Assembly (NCBI RefSeq): GCF_900099825.1
Contig: NZ_LT629693.1
Coordinates: 6,583,001 to 6,647,000, forward strand
Reading direction: 5' to 3'
Source: Bradyrhizobium ottawaense
GTDB taxonomy: Bacteria > Pseudomonadota > Alphaproteobacteria > Rhizobiales > Xanthobacteraceae
Length of the DNA: 64,000 nt
The notes beneath the pieces were generated by a model. The model saw only the letters and a list, made by a program, of their open reading frames with translations, had not been told where the DNA came from and searched no databases. Positions 1 to 9,154 of the stretch are shown in pieces (within the stretch, counting starts at the first letter, position 1; every line of letters begins with the position of its first letter). Position numbers and translations under genes: made by a program.

Positions 1-653
1 TCCTTCAGCCCGACCGCGCCGCCCTCGTTGAGGGCAAATTCGGCGTCGATCAGGTCGCGGTGGTTTTTCAGCAGCCACTGGATGCCGAGCGCATCCTTGT
101 CGAGAATCTCTTCGTCGGTCTCCAGCGCCAGGATGATGTCGCGGTCCGGCTTGTAGCCTTCCTGCTTGTAGCGGATGAGATTGGCGACAAAGGACGCCGC
201 CATGTATTTGTCGTCGCCGCTGCCGCGCGCGTAGAAATAGCCGTCCTGCTCGACCAGCTTGAACGGATCGGTCGCCCAGTCCTCGCGGGGGGCCGGCACG
301 ACGTCGATATGGGCCACCAGCAGGATCGGCTTGCGCGCGCCGGATCCTTTCAGACGCGCGACCAGATTGCCCTTGCGCGGCGCCGGCGAGAACACCTGAA
401 CGTCGGCGTCCGGAAAGCCGCCGGCGCGCAGCCGTGCGGCCATGGCTTCGGCGGCCTTTGCGGTGTCGCCGGTCGCCGTCACGGTGTTGATCTCGATCAG
501 CTCCTTGTAGATGTCGAGCGCCCGCTGCTGGTTGGGGTTCAGGCTCTCGGCGGCGGCCGGGCTTGATATCGCCAGGGCTGCTGACATCAGCATCGCTGCT
601 GCCAGGTGAGGGGATTTGAAATTCGAACTCGTCAACAGGCGCATCGGTTTCAT
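1..653 (-). CDS. M20 family metallopeptidase, exported (3' part outside window)
   Basis: This is the last gene of the minus-strand amine-oxidase operon and it runs off the left edge, leaving about 217 codons. The N-terminus has a signal peptide (hydrophobic AAAMLMSAALAIS then AAAES), so the enzyme is probably periplasmic. Family hallmarks are visible: LLVAHIDVVPA (metal-ligand His and the following Asp), then YARGSGDDKYM with the bridging Asp region, and LALETDEEI with the catalytic Glu pair typical of M20 carboxypeptidases and deacylases. The start ATG lies only 3 bases after the ridA stop, so the two are probably co-translated. M20 enzymes cleave peptide or amide bonds with one or two zinc ions. 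The actual substrate cannot be read; by context it may be an N-acyl or dipeptide form of the amine handled upstream. Confidence 0.88.
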   Translation of the reverse strand, partial: MKPMRLLTSSNFKSPHLAAAMLMSAALAISSPAAAESLNPNQQRALDIYKELIEINTVTATGDTAKAAEAMAARLRAGGFPDADVQVFSPAPRKGNLVARLKGSGARKPILLVAHIDVVPAPREDWATDPFKLVEQDGYFYARGSGDDKYMAASFVANLIRYKQEGYKPDRDIILALETDEEILDKDALGIQWLLKNHRDLIDAEFALNEGGAVGLK

Positions 654-656
654 CCT

Positions 657-1142
657 CTATTTCGAGTCCTTGGCAGCCGTGACTTCAATCTCGACCAGAA
701 ATCCGGGATTGGCCAGCGCTGCGACGCCGACGACGGAGCGGACGGGAAGGTTGGGCTGAGCGCCGCCGAAAAACTGCGTGTAACCCTCCATGAAGGCCTT
801 GAAGTCCATCGGCGCCCGGGCGTCGTGCACCAGGAACACCTGCATCTTGACGACATCGGCCATGCCGAACCCCTGGCCCTCAAGGATCTGCTTGATCCGG
901 TTGAGCACGCCGACGGTCTGCGTTTTGGTGTCGCCATAAGCCTGCGGACTGGTGGCTTCGACATCCTTGTTGATGACGGGCGGCACCTGGCCGCTCACAT
1001 ACAAAGTGACGGCGTCACCGGAGACCTTCACCGCCTGGGCGATCGGGAACGTCGAATTCGGAATCGGGTACCGCACGACTTCGGCGTGGACGACGTTCGA
1101 GCCGAGCAGCAACGCGGTCAGCGCCAGCATTCCCTTTTTCAT
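657..1142 (-). CDS. Exported RidA (YjgF/YER057c/UK114) family protein
   Basis: 161 residues: a signal peptide (MKKGMLALTALLLGSNVVHA) followed by a complete RidA domain. RidA proteins hydrolyse reactive imine/enamine intermediates to ketones and ammonia. The substrate-binding Arg is present in the motif LPVRSVVGVAALANPG (equivalent to E. coli RidA Arg105), and the acidic residues follow in FLVEIEVTA. Most RidA proteins are cytosolic, so the leader is unusual and places imine hydrolysis in the periplasm. A Shine-Dalgarno-like GGGAGACGAAG precedes the ATG. The gene sits between a cytochrome c and an M20 peptidase in an operon headed by a flavin amine oxidase, whose primary product would be an imine, so the role inferred is clearing that imine. 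Confidence 0.9.
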   Translation of the reverse strand: MKKGMLALTALLLGSNVVHAEVVRYPIPNSTFPIAQAVKVSGDAVTLYVSGQVPPVINKDVEATSPQAYGDTKTQTVGVLNRIKQILEGQGFGMADVVKMQVFLVHDARAPMDFKAFMEGYTQFFGGAQPNLPVRSVVGVAALANPGFLVEIEVTAAKDSK

Positions 1143-1163
1143 CTTCGTCTCCCATGTGGCCGA

Positions 1164-1607
1164 TCAAGGCCTGATACGTTTGACGTCGTCGGCGGTGACG
1201 GCGTCGTTATACTGATTGCCGAAATGCGTGCGCAGATAGTTGACGACGGCGGCGACCTGGTCGTCGCTCATCATCGCGCCGACCGGCGGCATCGCCTTCT
1301 GGCCCCGGACGACGACGTAGACCGGATAACCGCCCGCCTCGAGATTGCTGTCTTTCGACAGCGAGGGATAGGTGCCCGCGCCGGCGGCGCCGTGACCGTC
1401 CGGCATGTGGCAACCCTGACAGGCGCTGGCGAACAGATCCTCTCCGGTCTGCTCGGTAAACCGGAAGCCGGTGCTCAGCGACGCCAGCGGCCGCGAACGC
1501 GCTTCTTCATCCGCATGCGCCGCTGATGACGCCAGCGACGTCACCATCAGGCCTGTGGCTGCTAGCAAGCGCTTCAATCTCGTTGGCTGGATCAGGCGGG
1601 AGGGCAT
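1164..1607 (-). CDS. Class I c-type cytochrome, exported
   Basis: 147 residues with a signal peptide (RLLAATGLMVTSLASSAAHA) and one haem-binding motif CQGCH at residues 63-67. A candidate distal haem ligand is Met106 in KAMPPVG. The C-terminus (DDQVAAVVNYLRTHFGN) is the usual terminal helix of small mono-haem cytochromes. The start at 1607 is chosen because a strong ribosome site (GGAGGTGAAGCG) precedes it; the reading frame stays open further upstream only as a shadow of the amine oxidase. The oxidase stop codon lies within this ribosome site, so translation is probably coupled. The cytochrome is the likely electron acceptor of the flavoenzyme encoded just upstream, as in bacterial nicotine oxidoreductase/CycN; that pairing is an inference. 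Confidence 0.92.
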   Translation of the reverse strand: MPSRLIQPTRLKRLLAATGLMVTSLASSAAHADEEARSRPLASLSTGFRFTEQTGEDLFASACQGCHMPDGHGAAGAGTYPSLSKDSNLEAGGYPVYVVVRGQKAMPPVGAMMSDDQVAAVVNYLRTHFGNQYNDAVTADDVKRIRP

Positions 1608-1611
1608 CGCT

Positions 1612-3210
1612 TCACCTCCGGACGACGCGTTCGTGCAGCCGCGTGATGGCGTCGAGCGACGACAAGATCGCGCCTTCCTGCCATGCCGGAATGTAGGAAG
1701 CGTGCTCGCCGGCCAGCACGATCCTGCCGTCGATCTGGCAGAGGTTGTCGTAGTGTTCGGCCCGCGCTTTCTCGGTCCAGCTTCCCGCGCACCCCAACGT
1801 GAAGGGAACCCGGTGCCAGGCCACGGCGATTCCGTTTTCGAATTCGGCGCGGTATTGCGGGTGAATGCGGGAGCCGAATTCGACGGCGCGCGCGATCCGG
1901 TCTGCCGGCGCCATCGAGGTGAATTCATAGGAATTGGCGCCCTCATAGACATAGGCGCCGAGCAGCACGCCGCGGCCGCTGCGATTGAATCCGCTGCTCG
2001 GATAGGAGATCTGCCGGATCGGCAAATCCGTGTAGCTGATGCCGCCGTAGATCGACTCATCCTCTTCCCAGAACCTGCGCTTGAATTGCAGACCGATCTT
2101 GACGGACGAGGAGTAGGGGACCGCATCGATCGCTGCCTTCATGCGCGGACCGACCTGGATATTGATCTGGCTCAGGATCGACAACGGAATCGTGCACACG
2201 CACCAATCCGCCGTCGCGGTCTGCTGCGCTGACGGCGCTTTTGAATTCACAAAATTGACGGTGACGCCGCCGTCGCTTTGTTGAATCCGGGTAACCTTTG
2301 CATCGAACTGAATGAGATCCCCGACCTCTCGCGCGAACGCCTTGCCGATCATGTCCATGCCGCCGACCGGCTGAAACATGGTGGTCTGAAATTCATGCAG
2401 AGAGAAATTTCGCAAGTAACCCCAAAGCCTGGATTTCAGGATATCCTGGAGCTTGATGACCTCGCCGGCGACCGGCGCCGCACCGAGCCCGCCGCCGGGA
2501 TCCTTGGCATAGCCGCGATAAGCCGCTGAAATCAGATTGGCCTGGTAGGCATAGTTCTTGTCCAGCGCGCCCCAGGACCGCAGCGCCTGCAGCAAGATCT
2601 CCTTGTCTTCAACCGTCACCGCTTCGTCGAGCTTGCCTTGCTGCGTCGTCTTGGCGAGCAGTTCCGACACATGGCCCTGAAAATCGGTCTTGATGTCGCG
2701 AATGCGCTGCGGCTTGCCCGCGAACGCCGTCGAGGCGTGGAGCAGGGCGTTGTGATTGAGCTGGATGAAGGGTTCGAGCGCGACGCCGAGCCGTTTGCAG
2801 TAATCCAGCAGAGCGCGGTGATGATACGGAATCCGCCATGGCCCCGGATTGAGATAGAGCCCGTCTTCGAAGCCGCAGGCCTGCGTTGCGCCGCCGAGTT
2901 CGGTGAAGCTGTCGCCACCGCGCAAGCTCCAGTTGCGACCACCCGGGCGGGTGTTGAACTCCAGCACCTGGACCTTGTAGCCGGCGGCGCGCAACTCGAG
3001 CGCGGCCGTCATGCCCGCCAGACCCGCGCCGAGCACCAGCACGGACGCGCCTTTGGTGTCGCCCGCGAGCTTGATCGGCCCTTTGTAGTTGGTTTCTGAT
3101 GCGAAGCCGAGGCTGGTCATCGCCTGGTACATCGCCGCACTGCCGGCGACCGACCCCACAAGCGACAGCAGATCGCGCCGGCTTACTGTCGTCTCGCTCT
3201 CGTTCGGCAT
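1612..3210 (-). CDS. Flavin-dependent amine oxidase/dehydrogenase with Tat-like leader
   Basis: 532 residues from the ATG at 3210. The N-terminus carries a twin-arginine-like signal (VSRRDLLSLVGSVAGSAA), so a folded FAD-loaded enzyme would be exported. The dinucleotide-binding motif VLVLGAGLAGMTAALE is at about residues 57-72 and is followed by the amine-oxidase sequence FNTRPGGRNWSLRGG. The C-terminal FAD motif is GRIVLAGEHASYIPAWQEGA. The family oxidises C-N bonds of primary or secondary amines to imines. The reading frame extends to 3291, but that start would place 27 extra residues before the Tat motif. First gene of a four-gene operon (oxidase, cytochrome c, RidA, M20 peptidase). Substrate unknown; the partner cytochrome suggests dehydrogenase rather than oxygen-using chemistry. 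Confidence 0.9.
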   Translation of the reverse strand: MPNESETTVSRRDLLSLVGSVAGSAAMYQAMTSLGFASETNYKGPIKLAGDTKGASVLVLGAGLAGMTAALELRAAGYKVQVLEFNTRPGGRNWSLRGGDSFTELGGATQACGFEDGLYLNPGPWRIPYHHRALLDYCKRLGVALEPFIQLNHNALLHASTAFAGKPQRIRDIKTDFQGHVSELLAKTTQQGKLDEAVTVEDKEILLQALRSWGALDKNYAYQANLISAAYRGYAKDPGGGLGAAPVAGEVIKLQDILKSRLWGYLRNFSLHEFQTTMFQPVGGMDMIGKAFAREVGDLIQFDAKVTRIQQSDGGVTVNFVNSKAPSAQQTATADWCVCTIPLSILSQINIQVGPRMKAAIDAVPYSSSVKIGLQFKRRFWEEDESIYGGISYTDLPIRQISYPSSGFNRSGRGVLLGAYVYEGANSYEFTSMAPADRIARAVEFGSRIHPQYRAEFENGIAVAWHRVPFTLGCAGSWTEKARAEHYDNLCQIDGRIVLAGEHASYIPAWQEGAILSSLDAITRLHERVVRR

Positions 3211-3336: not shown

Positions 3337-3369
3337 AAAACGGAGGCCGTGAGGCCTCCGTTTCTTATT
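3337..3369 (-). terminator. Rho-independent terminator of the growth-pole protein gene
   Basis: Perfect 8-bp stem CGGAGGCC/GGCCTCCG with a GTGA loop at 3341-3360. On the minus strand it lies about 30 bases after the stop at 3389 and is followed by TTTTGATTT. The plus strand also shows a T-rich tail, so it may act in both directions. Confidence 0.8.
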
Positions 3370-3388: not shown

Positions 3389-6300
3389 TTATCCCAGCCG
3401 TCCCGCCGCATGCGCGAGCAGGGTGTAGACCAGGCCGGTCTCCGAGGTGAGGTGACCGCGCAGCGCCTGCGGGGCTCGATCTTCGCGCGCGACCTCGTCG
3501 AGCAAGCGCTCGAACTCGGCGATGTAGCGGTCGACCGTCTGCTTGAAGCCGCGGTCGGCGCGGTACTTGCGGGCGACTTCATCGAACGCCTTCTGGCCGG
3601 CCGGCGTGTAGAGCCGCTTGGAGAACGCCTTGCTCTCGCCGCGCTGATAGCGATCCCACATCTCGGCGGCGAGGTTGCGATCCATCAGCCGGCCGATGTC
3701 GAGTGACAGCGATTCCAGCGGATTGGCAGTTCCTTGACTTTGGCCGCCTTGCGCGCGCGGGCGCGGAGCCTGGCCGCCGGCGGCGCCCGCGTCGGTGCGG
3801 TTGAGGAGATCGGACAGCCATCCGTCGCGTCCGCCTTCCTGGCTCGCCGGCGAGACCGGCGGCGCTTCGGTACGGCGCGACGGCATGCCGAGATCCGGCG
3901 GCGGCAAGGTCGATGCACTGCCGGTATCGCGCATGCGGGCGTCGTTGCGGCCGCCGGCGACGGCCATCAGGGGCTCTTCCTGACGCTGCACGGTGGCGCG
4001 GCCCTGGGTCACGACGTCGAGGCCGCGGCCATGATGGGCGACGATCCGGTTCAGTTCGGCCAGCGCCTCGATCTGGTCGACGATCACCTTGCGCATCTGC
4101 GCGGTGTTGTCGGCGGCCTCCTGCGGCATTTCGAGCACGCCGCGACGCAGTTCTTTGCGCGTGGCTTCGAGCTCGTTGTGCATCTCGGCGGCCATCTGCT
4201 TCATGGCCTGCACCATCGTGCCGAACTTCTCGGTCGACTGCTTGAACATCGCGTCGGTTTCCGCAGCGCTCTGCTGATACAGCTCACCCATGGCGTCGAG
4301 GGTCTGATGCCGTTCGTTTTCGGCAGCAGCCCGCACCGCTTCGAACTGCCGGCTGATCGCAGCCGATCCCGCACCTGCGGTCTCGGCGACGACACGCGCG
4401 ATGTCGCGGGCGCGCTCTTCGGCGGCGGCCAGCGATTCGTCGAGCAGGCCGGTGAAGCGCGACAGCCGCTGATCGAGGTCGGTGGTGCGCAGGTCAATGG
4501 TGGTCACCAGCGACTCGAGCTGCGACTTGCGATCGGCGACGGAGGCGGTGGTCGAGCGGTTGGCCTGTTCGACCACAGCCGCGGCATCGACCAGCGCCTT
4601 GCCGTGCTGGTCGAACTCGCTCGACAGCGCGCCGAGGTTTTCCAGCGCCTTGGACGTCTTGGTGTTGAAGACGGTCAACTGGTCTTCCAGCGTCTGGGTG
4701 GCGACGCCGTTGCGCGAAGTGACGTCGTTCATGGCGGACACGAAGTCGGCCACGCGGGTCACCAGCGCGCGCTCCAGCGAGTTGAGGTTGTCGTGGGCGC
4801 CGGTCAGCACTTCCTGCAGCAGGATGTTGCCTTCACGCAGCCGCTCGAACAGCGCCACGGTGTCGGTGCGCAGGATCTTGCTGGTCTCCTGCATTTCGGT
4901 CACGGCCGCGATCGAAACCTGGCGCGACTGGTCGATCGCCGAACGCGACGACTGCTCGAGGTCCTTGAGCGACTTGGCTACCGCGCCGGTGGCGAGGTCG
5001 CCGGCCGACGTGATCGTGCGCGCGACTTCCGAGCCGTTGGTCGCTATCGACTGCGAGAACGCGTTGCCGCGGGTCTCGATCGACTTCAGGGCGTCCGCGG
5101 TGACGCGGTCGATGTCGGTCGTGAGCTGCGTGGTCTTGGCGGCGAGCGCCTCGACCAGCGAACCGCGGCGGCTGTCGACGATCTGCGCCAGACGATCGGT
5201 CTGCTGCTGAACGTAGGTGACGATTTCGTCGGTCTTGCCGGTCATCGTCGAGCCGAAATTGCTGCTGGCGGCGAGAACCGAACGCTCGAGATCGGCCGAG
5301 GTCGACTTGACCTTGGAACTGACCTCGTTCGAAGCGGCAATCAGCGCGCTCTGCGCGGTCTGCGCGGTGGTCTGGATATTGTCGGTGGTAGCAGCCGTGA
5401 CGTTGCCGAGCGAACGCTCGATATCGGTGGAGATTGCCTTGATCGTGTTCGCGGCTTCGGACGAAGTCGCGGCGAACGATGTCTGCGCTTCGCGTGCGCT
5501 GCCGAGGATGGAGGCCGCGGTGGCGGCGCCTACCGCACTCAGGGTGCGTTCGACGTCGATCGCCAGCGACTTGACGTGGTTGGCGGCTTCCGAAGATGCG
5601 GTGACCAGAGTGTTCTGGGCTTCGCGGGCGCCTGTCGTGATCGCTTCGGCGGTACCGTTGCCGGCCATCCACAGCGAGCGTTGAACCTCGGCTGCCAGGG
5701 ACTGGACCTGGTTGGTCGCATCCGCGGACGCAGTGACGAGGGTGTTCTGGGCCTCCCGCGCACCCGTCGTGATCGCTTCCGCGGTAGCGGTTCCGGCGAG
5801 CGACAGCGAACGCTGGACGTCGGCGGCCAGCGACTTGACCTGGCTTGCGGCGTCGGCGGAAGCGGTGACGAGGGTGTTCTGGGCTTCGCGCGCACCCGAG
5901 GTGATCGACTCCGCGGTAGCCGTTCCGGCCATCGACAGCGAACGCTGGACGTCGGCGGAGAGCGACTTGACCTGATCGGCGGCCAGCGACGAGGCGTCCA
6001 TCAGGGTGTTCTGGGCGTCGCGCGCGCCGGCGGTGATGGCTTCCGCCGTGGCGGTACCGGCGATCGAGAGCGACCGCTCGACGTCTGCGGCGAGCGACTT
6101 GACCTGATTGGCCGCGTCGGTGGAGGCGGCGACCAGCGTGGACTGCGCCTGGCGTGCGCCGGCGGTGACTGCCTCGGCGGTCGAGGTGCCCGCGATCGAC
6201 AGCGAGCGTTCGACGTCAGCGGCGAGCGACTTGACCTGGCTTGCCGCGTCGGAGGACGCCGTGACCAGCGTGGTCTGGGCCTCGCGGGCGCCGGAGAGAA

Positions 6301-8968
6301 CCGACGCAGCCGTGGCGCTGCCTGCGGCCGAGAGCGTACGCTCGACGTCGGCGGCCAGCGACTTGATCTGCGAGGCGGCTTCGGAGGAGGCCGACACCAG
6401 CGTGTTCTGGGCGTCGCGGGAGCTGGTCAGGATCGAGTTCGCAGCCCCGGTGCCGACAGCGGTGAGGGAGGCTTCGACTTCAGCCGACGTCAGCTTGAGC
6501 TGGGCGCCGACATCGGAGGAAACGGTCAGCAGCGCCTGCTGTGCGGCGCGTGCGCCGGTCTGGATGGTCTCCGAGGTGTTGACCACGAGGTTGGTGAGCG
6601 AGCGTTCGGCGTCCTCGACATGGGACTTGATGCCCGAGGACAGCAATTCCGCGCGCGCCATGAGGTCGTCGCTGGCCTGACGGCCACTGCTCTCGATACG
6701 GCCTGCGACAGCCTCGACGCGCGAGCCCAGCAGGTCTTCGAACTGCGCAACGCGGGTGTCGATGTCGGTCGCGATCGCGCCGACTCGGGTCTCGATGCCC
6801 TGGTGGATTTCCTGGAAACGGGCGGAGATGGTGTCGGTCAGGTGGGTGCTGCGGCCATCGACGGTTTCGATGACGTTGGTGATGCGATGATCGACCGCCG
6901 CAAGCGCCTGCGCCGTGCCGTCGGTCAGCGTGGAGGTGAGGAGGCCAAGCCGCGAGTCGATCGACTGGATCGCCTGCGCCGCGCCTTCGGTCAGCGACGT
7001 CGACAGCGTGCCGAGGCGGCCGTCGATGGTTTCGGTGACGGACTTCGCGCGGGTATCGAAGGTCTGTTCGAGCGATTTCAGGCGGCCATCGATGGTCTCG
7101 TCGAATGACTTGATCCGGGTCTCAAGCGAGCCATCGAGATGGTTGATCTTGCTGTCCAGCGAGCTGTTGAGATGGCTGATCTTGCCATCCAGCGAGCTGT
7201 CGAGGCTGGTGACGCGGCTGCCGAGCGTGGTTTCGAACTGCAGCAGGCGCTGATCCAGCGACGCGGTGATCTCGCCGCCGTTCGAGGACAGGCGGGTGTC
7301 GAAGGTGTCGACGTAGTTCTTCAGGCTGTCGCCGATCTCCTGCGTGCGCTGGCCCATGCGCTCGACGATCTCGCCGCCGAAGGTTTTGACGGTGCGATCG
7401 AATTCCGAGATGTGGCGGGTGATCAGCGCGCCGAGCGTGCCGCTGTCGCGGGCGAATTTTTCCGCCAGCTCGCCGCCCTGGTTCTTCACCAGTTCGTCGA
7501 AGGCGCTCATCTGCAGCGAGAGGCTGTCGTGCGCGGTTTCGGTCTGGCTGATCACCTTGGCGACCAGCGTGTTGACCGTGACATCCAGCGCGTCGCTGGC
7601 CTTGTCGCCCGAAGACATGATCTGGGTCGCGAGGCGATTGCCGGCGTCGTCGATCTTGCTGACGAGGTCGCCCGAGCGCAGCTCGAGCTCGAGCAGCAGG
7701 GAGTCGGAGGAATTCTTCAGGCTGTCGTGGACCTGTTCGGTGCGATCCGAAATGCCGTCGACGATGGTCGAGGAGCGCTGTTCGAATTCGCCGGTGATGC
7801 GGTCGATGCGCTCGTTCAGCATCTCGTGGACGCGGTCGGCCAGATCGACGAACTCGTCGTGGACGTGCCCGGTCTTGAAGTTGAGGCTGGTGGTCAGGCG
7901 CTCCGAGGCGTCGAGCACGGCGCGCGTGGTCTCGGCGCTGGCTTCCTCGAGGCGGTCGAGCAGGTCGCCGCCGCGTTCGCCAAGCGCCAGGATCATGTTG
8001 TCGCCGGCATGGCTCAAGGCGCCGGTGATGTGCTGGCCGCGCTCTTCAAGCGCGCCAGTGATGCTTTTCGCGACTTCGTCGACGCGGGAAGCGATCGCGT
8101 CCGAGATCAGCGCGATATCGTGGCGCAGGTCGATCTGCACGCCGGAAATGGCGCTGCGAACCTGCTCGGCCTGGCCGACCAGATTGTCGCGCTGATGGGC
8201 GATGTCCTGCAGCAGCGCGCGGATGCGCACTTCGTTATCGGTGTAGGCACGCTCGAGCGCCGAGACCTCGTTGGCGACCAGCGTTTCGAGTTCGCCGGCG
8301 CGCGCGATCGCGCGTTCGACGCCGTCGCCCATCGCAGCGACCTCGCGGCGGATCGCCTGACCGACGGTCACCATGGAATCGGCGGCCGCATTTTCCGGCT
8401 CGGAGAAGCGGATCGCGACCTGCGCCATCGACTGCGCGATCATGCGCATTTCCTGGCCGCGCCAAGCAAGGCTGGCGAGGAAGTAGAACAACAGTACCGG
8501 CGCAAAGAACAGCGCGGCAAGGCCGCCGAGGACCAGCACGCCGCCGCTCTGTCCGATCGCGGCCTGCAGCGAGGGCAGGAAGCTGACGGTCAGAAGCGCG
8601 GAGCCGACCAGCCAGACGGCGCCGAAGATGGTTGCAAGCGTATAGACGCTGCGGGCAGGGCGGCCCTTCTGGATCGCTTGCAGGATCTGTCCGATGGTTT
8701 CGCGATCGTCGTTGGCGGCGCGACGGGGACTGCGCGGCTCGTCGATCGGATCGAACACGGGACGATCCGCGCTCTGGCGCATATCGCGCGTGTCGTATGG
8801 TGTTTCGGAATAAGACGGTTCAGCGGAGGAAATGGTCGGCGGCGCCATGTCGTTGCCGATCGAATTTCGGCTGGTGTCGACGGTCGTATCGCTGATGTTC
8901 AACGCTTCCTGAATGGCGGAAAGCGCGACTTCAGTGGGATCTTTGACCTTCTTGGGAGTGTTCGCCAT
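3389..8968 (-). CDS. Giant membrane-anchored coiled-coil protein, GPR/RgsE (growth pole ring) type
   Basis: 1859 residues from the ATG at 8968 (MANTPKKVKDPTEVALSAIQ). Two transmembrane segments (about residues 109-131 and 143-168) follow a Pro/Asp-rich N-terminal region of about 105 residues. Almost all the rest is low-hydrophobicity helix predicted as coiled coil, with apolipoprotein-like repeats. Residues of about 780-1262 are roughly eleven tandem 44-residue units (4 x 11, hendecad). A more conserved C-terminal patch holds LYTPAGQKAFDEVARKYRAD and ends LLAHAAGRLG. Length, two N-terminal membrane helices and the apolipoprotein-like body match the Agrobacterium GPR and Sinorhizobium RgsE proteins that organise unipolar growth; orthology is inferred. 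Single-gene unit with its own terminator; a CtrA-type box lies about 190 bases upstream. An in-frame start at 9118 is possible but unlikely. Confidence 0.8.
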   Translation of the reverse strand: MANTPKKVKDPTEVALSAIQEALNISDTTVDTSRNSIGNDMAPPTISSAEPSYSETPYDTRDMRQSADRPVFDPIDEPRSPRRAANDDRETIGQILQAIQKGRPARSVYTLATIFGAVWLVGSALLTVSFLPSLQAAIGQSGGVLVLGGLAALFFAPVLLFYFLASLAWRGQEMRMIAQSMAQVAIRFSEPENAAADSMVTVGQAIRREVAAMGDGVERAIARAGELETLVANEVSALERAYTDNEVRIRALLQDIAHQRDNLVGQAEQVRSAISGVQIDLRHDIALISDAIASRVDEVAKSITGALEERGQHITGALSHAGDNMILALGERGGDLLDRLEEASAETTRAVLDASERLTTSLNFKTGHVHDEFVDLADRVHEMLNERIDRITGEFEQRSSTIVDGISDRTEQVHDSLKNSSDSLLLELELRSGDLVSKIDDAGNRLATQIMSSGDKASDALDVTVNTLVAKVISQTETAHDSLSLQMSAFDELVKNQGGELAEKFARDSGTLGALITRHISEFDRTVKTFGGEIVERMGQRTQEIGDSLKNYVDTFDTRLSSNGGEITASLDQRLLQFETTLGSRVTSLDSSLDGKISHLNSSLDSKINHLDGSLETRIKSFDETIDGRLKSLEQTFDTRAKSVTETIDGRLGTLSTSLTEGAAQAIQSIDSRLGLLTSTLTDGTAQALAAVDHRITNVIETVDGRSTHLTDTISARFQEIHQGIETRVGAIATDIDTRVAQFEDLLGSRVEAVAGRIESSGRQASDDLMARAELLSSGIKSHVEDAERSLTNLVVNTSETIQTGARAAQQALLTVSSDVGAQLKLTSAEVEASLTAVGTGAANSILTSSRDAQNTLVSASSEAASQIKSLAADVERTLSAAGSATAASVLSGAREAQTTLVTASSDAASQVKSLAADVERSLSIAGTSTAEAVTAGARQAQSTLVAASTDAANQVKSLAADVERSLSIAGTATAEAITAGARDAQNTLMDASSLAADQVKSLSADVQRSLSMAGTATAESITSGAREAQNTLVTASADAASQVKSLAADVQRSLSLAGTATAEAITTGAREAQNTLVTASADATNQVQSLAAEVQRSLWMAGNGTAEAITTGAREAQNTLVTASSEAANHVKSLAIDVERTLSAVGAATAASILGSAREAQTSFAATSSEAANTIKAISTDIERSLGNVTAATTDNIQTTAQTAQSALIAASNEVSSKVKSTSADLERSVLAASSNFGSTMTGKTDEIVTYVQQQTDRLAQIVDSRRGSLVEALAAKTTQLTTDIDRVTADALKSIETRGNAFSQSIATNGSEVARTITSAGDLATGAVAKSLKDLEQSSRSAIDQSRQVSIAAVTEMQETSKILRTDTVALFERLREGNILLQEVLTGAHDNLNSLERALVTRVADFVSAMNDVTSRNGVATQTLEDQLTVFNTKTSKALENLGALSSEFDQHGKALVDAAAVVEQANRSTTASVADRKSQLESLVTTIDLRTTDLDQRLSRFTGLLDESLAAAEERARDIARVVAETAGAGSAAISRQFEAVRAAAENERHQTLDAMGELYQQSAAETDAMFKQSTEKFGTMVQAMKQMAAEMHNELEATRKELRRGVLEMPQEAADNTAQMRKVIVDQIEALAELNRIVAHHGRGLDVVTQGRATVQRQEEPLMAVAGGRNDARMRDTGSASTLPPPDLGMPSRRTEAPPVSPASQEGGRDGWLSDLLNRTDAGAAGGQAPRPRAQGGQSQGTANPLESLSLDIGRLMDRNLAAEMWDRYQRGESKAFSKRLYTPAGQKAFDEVARKYRADRGFKQTVDRYIAEFERLLDEVAREDRAPQALRGHLTSETGLVYTLLAHAAGRLG
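5181..6632 (-). repeat. About eleven tandem 132-bp (44-codon) hendecad repeats
   Basis: Within the giant coiled-coil gene the protein repeats every 44 residues, with units beginning SLAADVERSLS and ending around SDAASQVK. The central units (about copies 2-7) are most alike; both ends are degenerate. 44 is four 11-residue hendecads, compatible with a continuous, slightly right-handed coiled coil. Confidence 0.8.
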
Positions 8969-9154
8969 GTTCAGTCCGAGCCCTCTTACTTTTTTGCGCA
9001 TCCAGCCGTTCTTGCTAACGTCCCCGCAAGCCCGATGCCGACGTCTTTGCCCCGCCGCGCAGCGCAAGCGCGCCCGTGCAGAAACCAGGGCCCGCTTGTC
9101 CGCTACATCCGCAAACATCCTATTGGGAGAGCGATACGAATGAAATGGCCGCGA

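Follow-up and report, generated by a model that had tools for sequence, protein, structure and literature searches.

An apparently exported flavoenzyme, cytochrome c, Rid protein and M20 peptidase encoded together in Bradyrhizobium ottawaense: a probable periplasmic L-amino-acid dehydrogenase module

For Gluconacetobacter diazotrophicus PAL5, Rodrigues et al. 2016 (PMC5053998) described the gene cluster lao-cccA-ridA (GDI2456-2454), and reported that transposon insertions in lao abolish auxin formation and leave most of the tryptophan unmetabolised, while earlier ccm mutants made only 5% of the auxin; the authors also noted a twin-arginine translocation (Tat) signal and put the cytochrome forward as a possible electron acceptor. 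Here we analysed a 64,000-nucleotide stretch of Bradyrhizobium ottawaense DNA (the window; contig NZ_LT629693.1, positions 6,583,001 to 6,647,000), taken from a genome that consists of a single 8.34-Mb contig. At its left edge the minus strand carries, in transcription order, genes for a flavoenzyme (lao), a cytochrome c (cccA), a Rid protein (ridA) and an M20 peptidase, separated by 4, 21 and 3 bases (Table 1). The three-gene core of this set is already published, and the M20 gene is a local addition in this lineage. We consider a periplasmic L-amino-acid dehydrogenase module to be the likely product of the operon, made up of the flavoenzyme, its cytochrome, a Rid protein and a probable M20-based supply of substrate.

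The G. diazotrophicus cluster was located by means of the published primers, one of which matched 2 of 397 genomes; six of six primers were exact in one locus (L230) and five of six in another (L229). Gene order and strand in L230 are the same as in the window, the flavoenzyme belongs to the same clade in the tree described below, the Rid protein has a signal-like start, and the orthologous products are 57% (flavoenzyme, 519 aa), 42% (cytochrome, 135 aa) and 46% (Rid, 148 aa) identical. Unlike in the window, no M20 match was found among the flanking open reading frames (ORFs) within the 12-kb stretch. The auxin phenotype belongs to the G. diazotrophicus cluster (PMC5053998), whereas the window set is known from its genes alone.

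Within the flavoprotein amine oxidase superfamily, a Tat signal and an adjacent cytochrome are reported to predict cytochrome c-using dehydrogenases, the cytochrome being the stronger sign (Akram 2025, PMC12224317). That set was collected with NicA2 as the query, and the main text of the article contains none of the terms "L-amino acid", "amino acid oxidase", "LAAO" or "imine". NicA2/Pnao and clades 1-3 of that study combine a Tat motif with an adjacent monohaem cytochrome c as the window does, whereas the window enzyme and its clade appear to lie on the L-amino-acid-oxidase branch. In Chlamydomonas, LAO1 with LAO2/RIDA (PMC10805672, where the three-gene cluster is cited as well) likewise combines an L-amino acid oxidase of the periplasm with a Rid protein and converts tryptophan to indolepyruvate; in contrast to the window set it is eukaryotic, makes H2O2 and is not known to have a cytochrome partner. 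In 2015, Rid genes were reported to cluster with those for amine oxidases (PMC4433059). Our literature search, which covered few subscription papers, found no report of the four-gene set, of cytochrome reduction by the clade or of the enzyme's biochemistry.

By sequence and fold along its entire catalytic chain, the window flavoenzyme belongs to the Rhodococcus type of L-amino acid oxidase. The Rhodococcus opacus enzyme (2jae) shares its fold, 36% identity and the Arg and Trp, and possibly the Tyr, of the pocket, whereas the window enzyme differs by its Tat-type N-terminus, the adjacent cytochrome gene, W125, C474 and the loss of the counterpart of Trp426. In the Rhodococcus enzyme we take Arg84 to be the carboxylate-binding residue and Trp467, Trp426 and Tyr371 to be pocket residues. 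The counterpart of Arg84 is invariant within and outside the clade delimited below, and Trp510, which pairs with Trp467, is present in 96/96 clade rows. Tyr420, a candidate counterpart of Tyr371, is kept in 93 of the 96 (three have Phe); the alignment of many rows places it opposite a Tyr of 2jae, whereas the pairwise alignment sets the second of the two neighbouring Tyr in AYY against Val421. Immediately before the carboxylate Arg, W125 occurs in 96/96 clade rows and in 1/27 outside (L080), and the column of Trp426, next to the clade-diagnostic Cys474, holds Trp in 20/27 outside rows. Since sequence and fold are of this type, the imine formed should be a 2-imino acid, giving a 2-oxo acid as product.

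The first-pass annotation of the window had instead cast the flavoenzyme as an amine dehydrogenase of the NicA2 kind, with the M20 peptidase freeing the amine from a conjugate. The layout of Tat signal plus cytochrome does resemble NicA2-CycN (PMC12224317), but we regard this version as very improbable and rejected it, as the closest sequences and folds among the matches listed are L-amino acid oxidases, the carboxylate-binding Arg is invariant, and the orthologue is required for tryptophan conversion (PMC5053998). NicA2 was absent from the best 60 of 103 sequence matches and from the 50 fold matches listed, which by itself excludes nothing, and a PDB search with a Tat-type paralogue from the host gave no match at 1e-30. 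The underlying observation and most of the proposed chemistry stood, with the substrate class reassigned to L-amino acids.

Association with the cytochrome was followed through two sets of loci. The 80 named loci are the best 80 of 574 confirmed matches, hence clade members by choice, and in 79 of them lao is succeeded on its strand by a gene for the same type of CxxCH cytochrome; Rid adjoins lao in 46, a PRK09133-type M20 in 9, and all four genes stand together in 5. A further 41 loci were read from genomes of the family and class and picked regardless of gene context: here the cytochrome was present in 15/15 loci with a clade enzyme and in 1/26 loci (L080) with more distant relatives of at most 45% identity (in L058 the downstream region is cut by the contig end). 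A lao relative was found in 21/198 family genomes (E 1e-30) and 24/387 class genomes (E 1e-60), with the host counted in both, and all four genes in the host, G138, G095 and, in pieces, G099. The complete four-gene pathway that the first-pass annotation had read is thus real locally and not a general arrangement: across loci lao and the cytochrome co-occur, and the four together generally do not.

For the tree, 4 of 127 L-amino acid oxidase rows with less than 85% coverage were omitted and 124 rows, including 2jae, were reduced to 63 by dereplication at 75% identity. A quick method with Shimodaira-Hasegawa-like approximate likelihood ratio test (SH-aLRT) support only recovered a clade of 41 rows (SH-aLRT 96), 40 of them with cytochrome and one, L101, without; outside it fell 20 rows without cytochrome and L080 with one. 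Besides the haem motif, the cytochrome has kept Met106, the probable axial ligand, in 96/96 rows.

By the rule of Akram (PMC12224317), the lao clade should thus consist of dehydrogenases, and the adjacency of the cytochrome supports cytochrome c as the likely acceptor, as had been proposed at first pass. The Tat-exported flavoenzyme would turn free L-amino acids into 2-imino acids by oxidation and, with no H2O2 made, be reoxidised by the monohaem cytochrome c encoded next to it, which would feed the respiratory chain. On plasmid pDSHI02 of Dinoroseobacter shibae (L261:1-7054), genes for a c-type cytochrome, coxB, ctaD, a small gene and an assembly gene precede lao and its cytochrome on one strand, with a 22-base gap, as if this lao were coupled to a dedicated terminal oxidase. 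What we observed directly is gene order, family relationship, conserved residues, export-type N-termini, orthology to the G. diazotrophicus cluster and the occurrence of the genes as a single cassette; the substrate class, the electron acceptor and the substrates of Rid and M20 are inferred.

Export was called from motifs and visible N-termini together with comparison across loci. All four products begin with Tat- or Sec-type regions (Table 1), in line with the initial description of a compact set of exported proteins. In the clade alignment, Arg at position 12 and Arg or Lys at position 11 were each found in 46/46 rows. Because nearly all lao relatives, inside and outside the cytochrome-bearing clade, carry the twin Arg, export of the flavoenzyme appears to be older than, or independent of, the cytochrome partner. 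For Rid, a crude signal test was applied, which looks for a charged start, a hydrophobic stretch free of charges and a small-x-small motif; where several starts were possible the best was taken, for test and control alike. A signal-like start was detected in 66/68 rows from lao loci, which include Rid genes some kb away from lao; the exceptions are L109, a fragment of a split gene, and L135, whose Rid is distant and only weakly related. Among control Rid proteins from elsewhere in the host and related genomes (24 rows, from a search of 38 loci), the test was positive in 1/24, or maybe 2/24, given that it missed the evident signal-like start of L193. The host itself has ten Rid genes, and by eye only the operon copy has a signal-like start; an exported RidA, singled out at first pass as unusual, is so within this genome, while in lao loci it is the rule. 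The Rid proteins of L073, L074, L077, L079 and L117 show by eye lipoprotein-like starts, with a Cys after the hydrophobic stretch.

The closest solved relatives of the window Rid, PSPTO_3006 (9bka) and PFL_1385 (9bkc), are both Rid3 proteins and share its catalytic Arg. Their reported activity is the deamination of iminoarginine and of the imines that L-amino acid oxidase forms from Leu, Gln, Phe, Met and His (PMC5619798); they were assayed there as isolated proteins, and the main text does not contain the words "signal" or "periplasm". Together with the invariant Arg135, and with Glu151 likewise kept in 65/65 rows, this agrees with the earlier assignment of Rid as a likely imine hydrolase. 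The exported Rid would hydrolyse the imino acid in the periplasm to a 2-oxo acid and ammonia. A 2-imino acid formed there would be out of reach of a cytoplasmic Rid, which offers a plain reason for its export.

The M20 gene runs out of the window, so that the initially described gene layout was confirmed with the fourth gene only partly inside; the entire gene (L003:9208-10653) encodes 481 aa. The full protein scores 618 bits against the NCBIfam model NF006596/PRK09133 (cut-off 349), a subfamily without assigned function, and its remote solved relatives are aminoacylase-1, PepV, DapE and a dipeptidase. What we take to be the metal-ligand motifs of the M20 family are visible by eye in the protein. 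PRK09133 exceeds its cut-off in 14 of the 198 family genomes, and a lao relative is present in 11 of these 14 compared with 10 of the 184 others (Fisher p 3e-10; by genus 7/10 versus 7/37, p 0.004, both values being inflated by kinship of the genomes). On two contigs shorter than 4 kb, from G147 and G162 (L057 and L068), a PRK09133 M20 adjoins a more distant lao relative, with neither cytochrome nor Rid on the contig. The genome co-occurrence and these pairs tie the M20 peptidase to the flavoenzyme itself. The simplest reading, to which we give about an even chance, is that M20 frees L-amino acids from dipeptides or N-acyl amino acids, and the exported enzyme would in this lineage supply the flavoenzyme in that way. 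As an observation in its own right, L057 and L068 represent a second, separate pairing of the lao and PRK09133 families. An M20 gene upstream of lao on a Microvirga ossetica plasmid was set aside as a further case, being related to PRK09133 and under the cut-off (277 versus 349 bits).

Several findings weigh against the module as proposed. For the M20 peptidase, the co-occurrence with lao counts related genomes, the PRK09133 type is missing from 10 of the 21 lao genomes, and in 71/80 named loci it does not adjoin lao, so that it is not essential to the core. In Mesorhizobium and Aminobacter (L100, L102 and L103), the M20 that follows lao, cytochrome and rid is of a different type with no visible signal (PRK13013 for L100 and L103, the two run against NCBIfam), on which ground two independent recruitments of the same M20 were rejected. 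Rid, too, is not essential to the core, as it does not adjoin lao in 34/80 loci. No clade row has Trp in the Trp426 column (0/96), which makes for a different side-chain pocket and perhaps for special substrates. The cox genes stand beside lao in one lineage only, with no cox match in 129 other loci, whose flanks reach at most 6 kb and are often shorter. Finally, the invariant Lys371 probably corresponds to the lysine that, next to flavin N5, promotes the reaction of oxidases with O2, although this lysine is reported to occur in dehydrogenases too (Akram 2025, PMC12224317).

This last residue speaks for the view that the flavoenzyme is an exported true oxidase, which would use O2 and release H2O2 into the periplasm for competition or signalling, with the cytochrome removing peroxide or being incidental. 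Outside the clade, the twin Arg is seen in relatives that have no cytochrome, and most tested enzymes so arranged are reported to be fast with O2 (PMC12224317). The cytochrome at nearly every named locus, the clade-only active-site changes (W125, C474 and the lost Trp426 counterpart) and the cox genes that precede lao in D. shibae argue against an oxidase, which we therefore consider unlikely, even though the solved L-amino acid oxidase relatives presumably use O2 and a peroxide-handling gene may stand among the neighbour families.

Returning to the dehydrogenase module, the operon looks like a self-contained unit, since a terminator-like hairpin parts it from the upstream 1909-aa gene and the gene after M20, MlaD-like by eye, lies on the opposite strand; a consensus scan found no sigma-70-type promoter for it. 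Ten of twelve congeners were examined at the corresponding junction. In nine of the ten, the MlaD-like gene and the 1909-aa gene are direct neighbours, with 317-578 bases between the aligned ends and no operon, and in one (G587, L251) transporter-like and histidine-kinase-like genes (by eye) occupy the junction, which holds the four genes in the host and G138. Genomes of this genus thus have either the whole four-gene cassette or none of it, which supports the four acting together. At a threshold of E 1e-60, lao relatives occur on at least 35 plasmid records, several of which belong to root-nodule isolates. Foreign base composition was rejected as a sign of transfer (G+C 0.630 for the operon, 0.631 for the window), so the case for transfer rests on the empty junction and the plasmid copies.

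Several root-nodule isolates (Rhizobium tropici, R. gallicum, Mesorhizobium huakuii and Microvirga ossetica) have clade members on large plasmids, and G. diazotrophicus mutants lose auxin (PMC5053998); both observations would suit a dedicated auxin pathway on plants, leading from tryptophan through indolepyruvate to auxin. We find this doubtful: the clade also occurs on Sulfitobacter and Dinoroseobacter plasmids and in Alteromonadaceae, TIGR03394 (indole/phenylpyruvate decarboxylase), the single model searched, had no match over cut-off in the host genome, and a broad amino-acid enzyme would yield the same mutant phenotype.

More broadly, we lean towards regarding the clade as an independent cytochrome c-using lineage of the superfamily, on the L-amino-acid-oxidase rather than the NicA2/Pnao branch, which together with an exported Rid would form a mobile module that lets cells respire L-amino acids outside the cytoplasm and that in one case, D. 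shibae, is joined to cytochrome oxidase genes of its own. If true, this would account for the loss of auxin in the G. diazotrophicus cytochrome c maturation mutants, and would join L-amino-acid-oxidase-dependent auxin formation, cytochrome c users in a superfamily whose members were long regarded as oxidases, and Rid proteins without an assigned physiological role. The W125/C474 clade with cytochrome and its relatives without one form a natural comparison set for how flavoenzymes choose between O2 and cytochrome.

Table 1 Features of the lao locus and its surroundings (window coordinates)
Feature	Position	Strand	Evidence
Flavoenzyme lao, predicted exported L-amino-acid oxidoreductase, 532 aa	3210-1612	minus	Pfam Amino_oxidase, 173.9 bits
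Twin-arginine (Tat-type) signal region of flavoenzyme, residues 1-41	3210-3088	minus	SRRDLLSLVG read from sequence
Arg126 of flavoenzyme, counterpart of Rhodococcus Arg84	2835-2833	minus	96/96 clade and 27/27 other rows
Cys474 of flavoenzyme, clade-diagnostic, beside position of Rhodococcus Trp426	1791-1789	minus	96/96 clade rows, 0/27 outside
Ribosome-binding sequence GGAGGTGA for cytochrome gene, overlapping lao stop codon	1619-1612	minus	read from sequence
Monohaem cytochrome c, cccA, 147 aa	1607-1164	minus	Pfam Cytochrome_CBB3, 47.1 bits; PF13442/PF00034
Sec-type signal of cytochrome c, residues 1-32	within 1607-1164	minus	read from sequence
Haem motif CQGCH of cytochrome, residues 63-67	1421-1407	minus	C63, C66 and H67 in 96/96 rows
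Predicted exported Rid protein, ridA, 161 aa	1142-657	minus	Pfam PF01042 Ribonuc_L-PSP, 73.8 bits
Sec-type signal MKKGMLALTALLLGSNVVHA of Rid	1142-1083	minus	read from sequence; cross-locus comparison
Arg135 of Rid, counterpart of essential Arg105 of RidA	740-738	minus	65/65 rows
M20 peptidase, N-terminal 217 of 481 residues in window	653-1	minus	Pfam Peptidase_M20, 102.2 bits (full protein)
Sec-type signal of M20, residues 1-35	within 653-1	minus	read from sequence
Terminator-like hairpin, 11 pairs, between operon and upstream gene	3338-3363		
Upstream neighbour of operon, 1909-aa gene	3389-9118	minus	

Some individual loci depart from the usual layout. L101:4998-6587 (Bradyrhizobium tropiciagri) is the sole clade locus among the 80 named without a recognisable cytochrome, and the stretch behind it looks degraded; L072 is a tandem lao-cyt-lao, and in L078:5986-11560 two lao clusters face each other. 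A recurrent fifth gene was sought among the neighbour families: besides Rid and M20, the only wide family recognised by eye was a TonB-type receptor, near lao in 15 loci in either orientation (L114, L116, L117, L118, L120, L121, L127, L129, L153, L159 and others), and the idea of a fifth member was dropped. The plasmid loci L254-L256 and L259 lie near transposase, recombinase or group II intron genes. Most of the annotated plasmid copies listed are labelled "flavin monoamine oxidase family protein", a label that hides the likely substrate. The 1909-aa gene contains many near-repeated segments, and long ORFs opposite it (e.g. 3734-7108, plus strand) are probably shadows of its composition.

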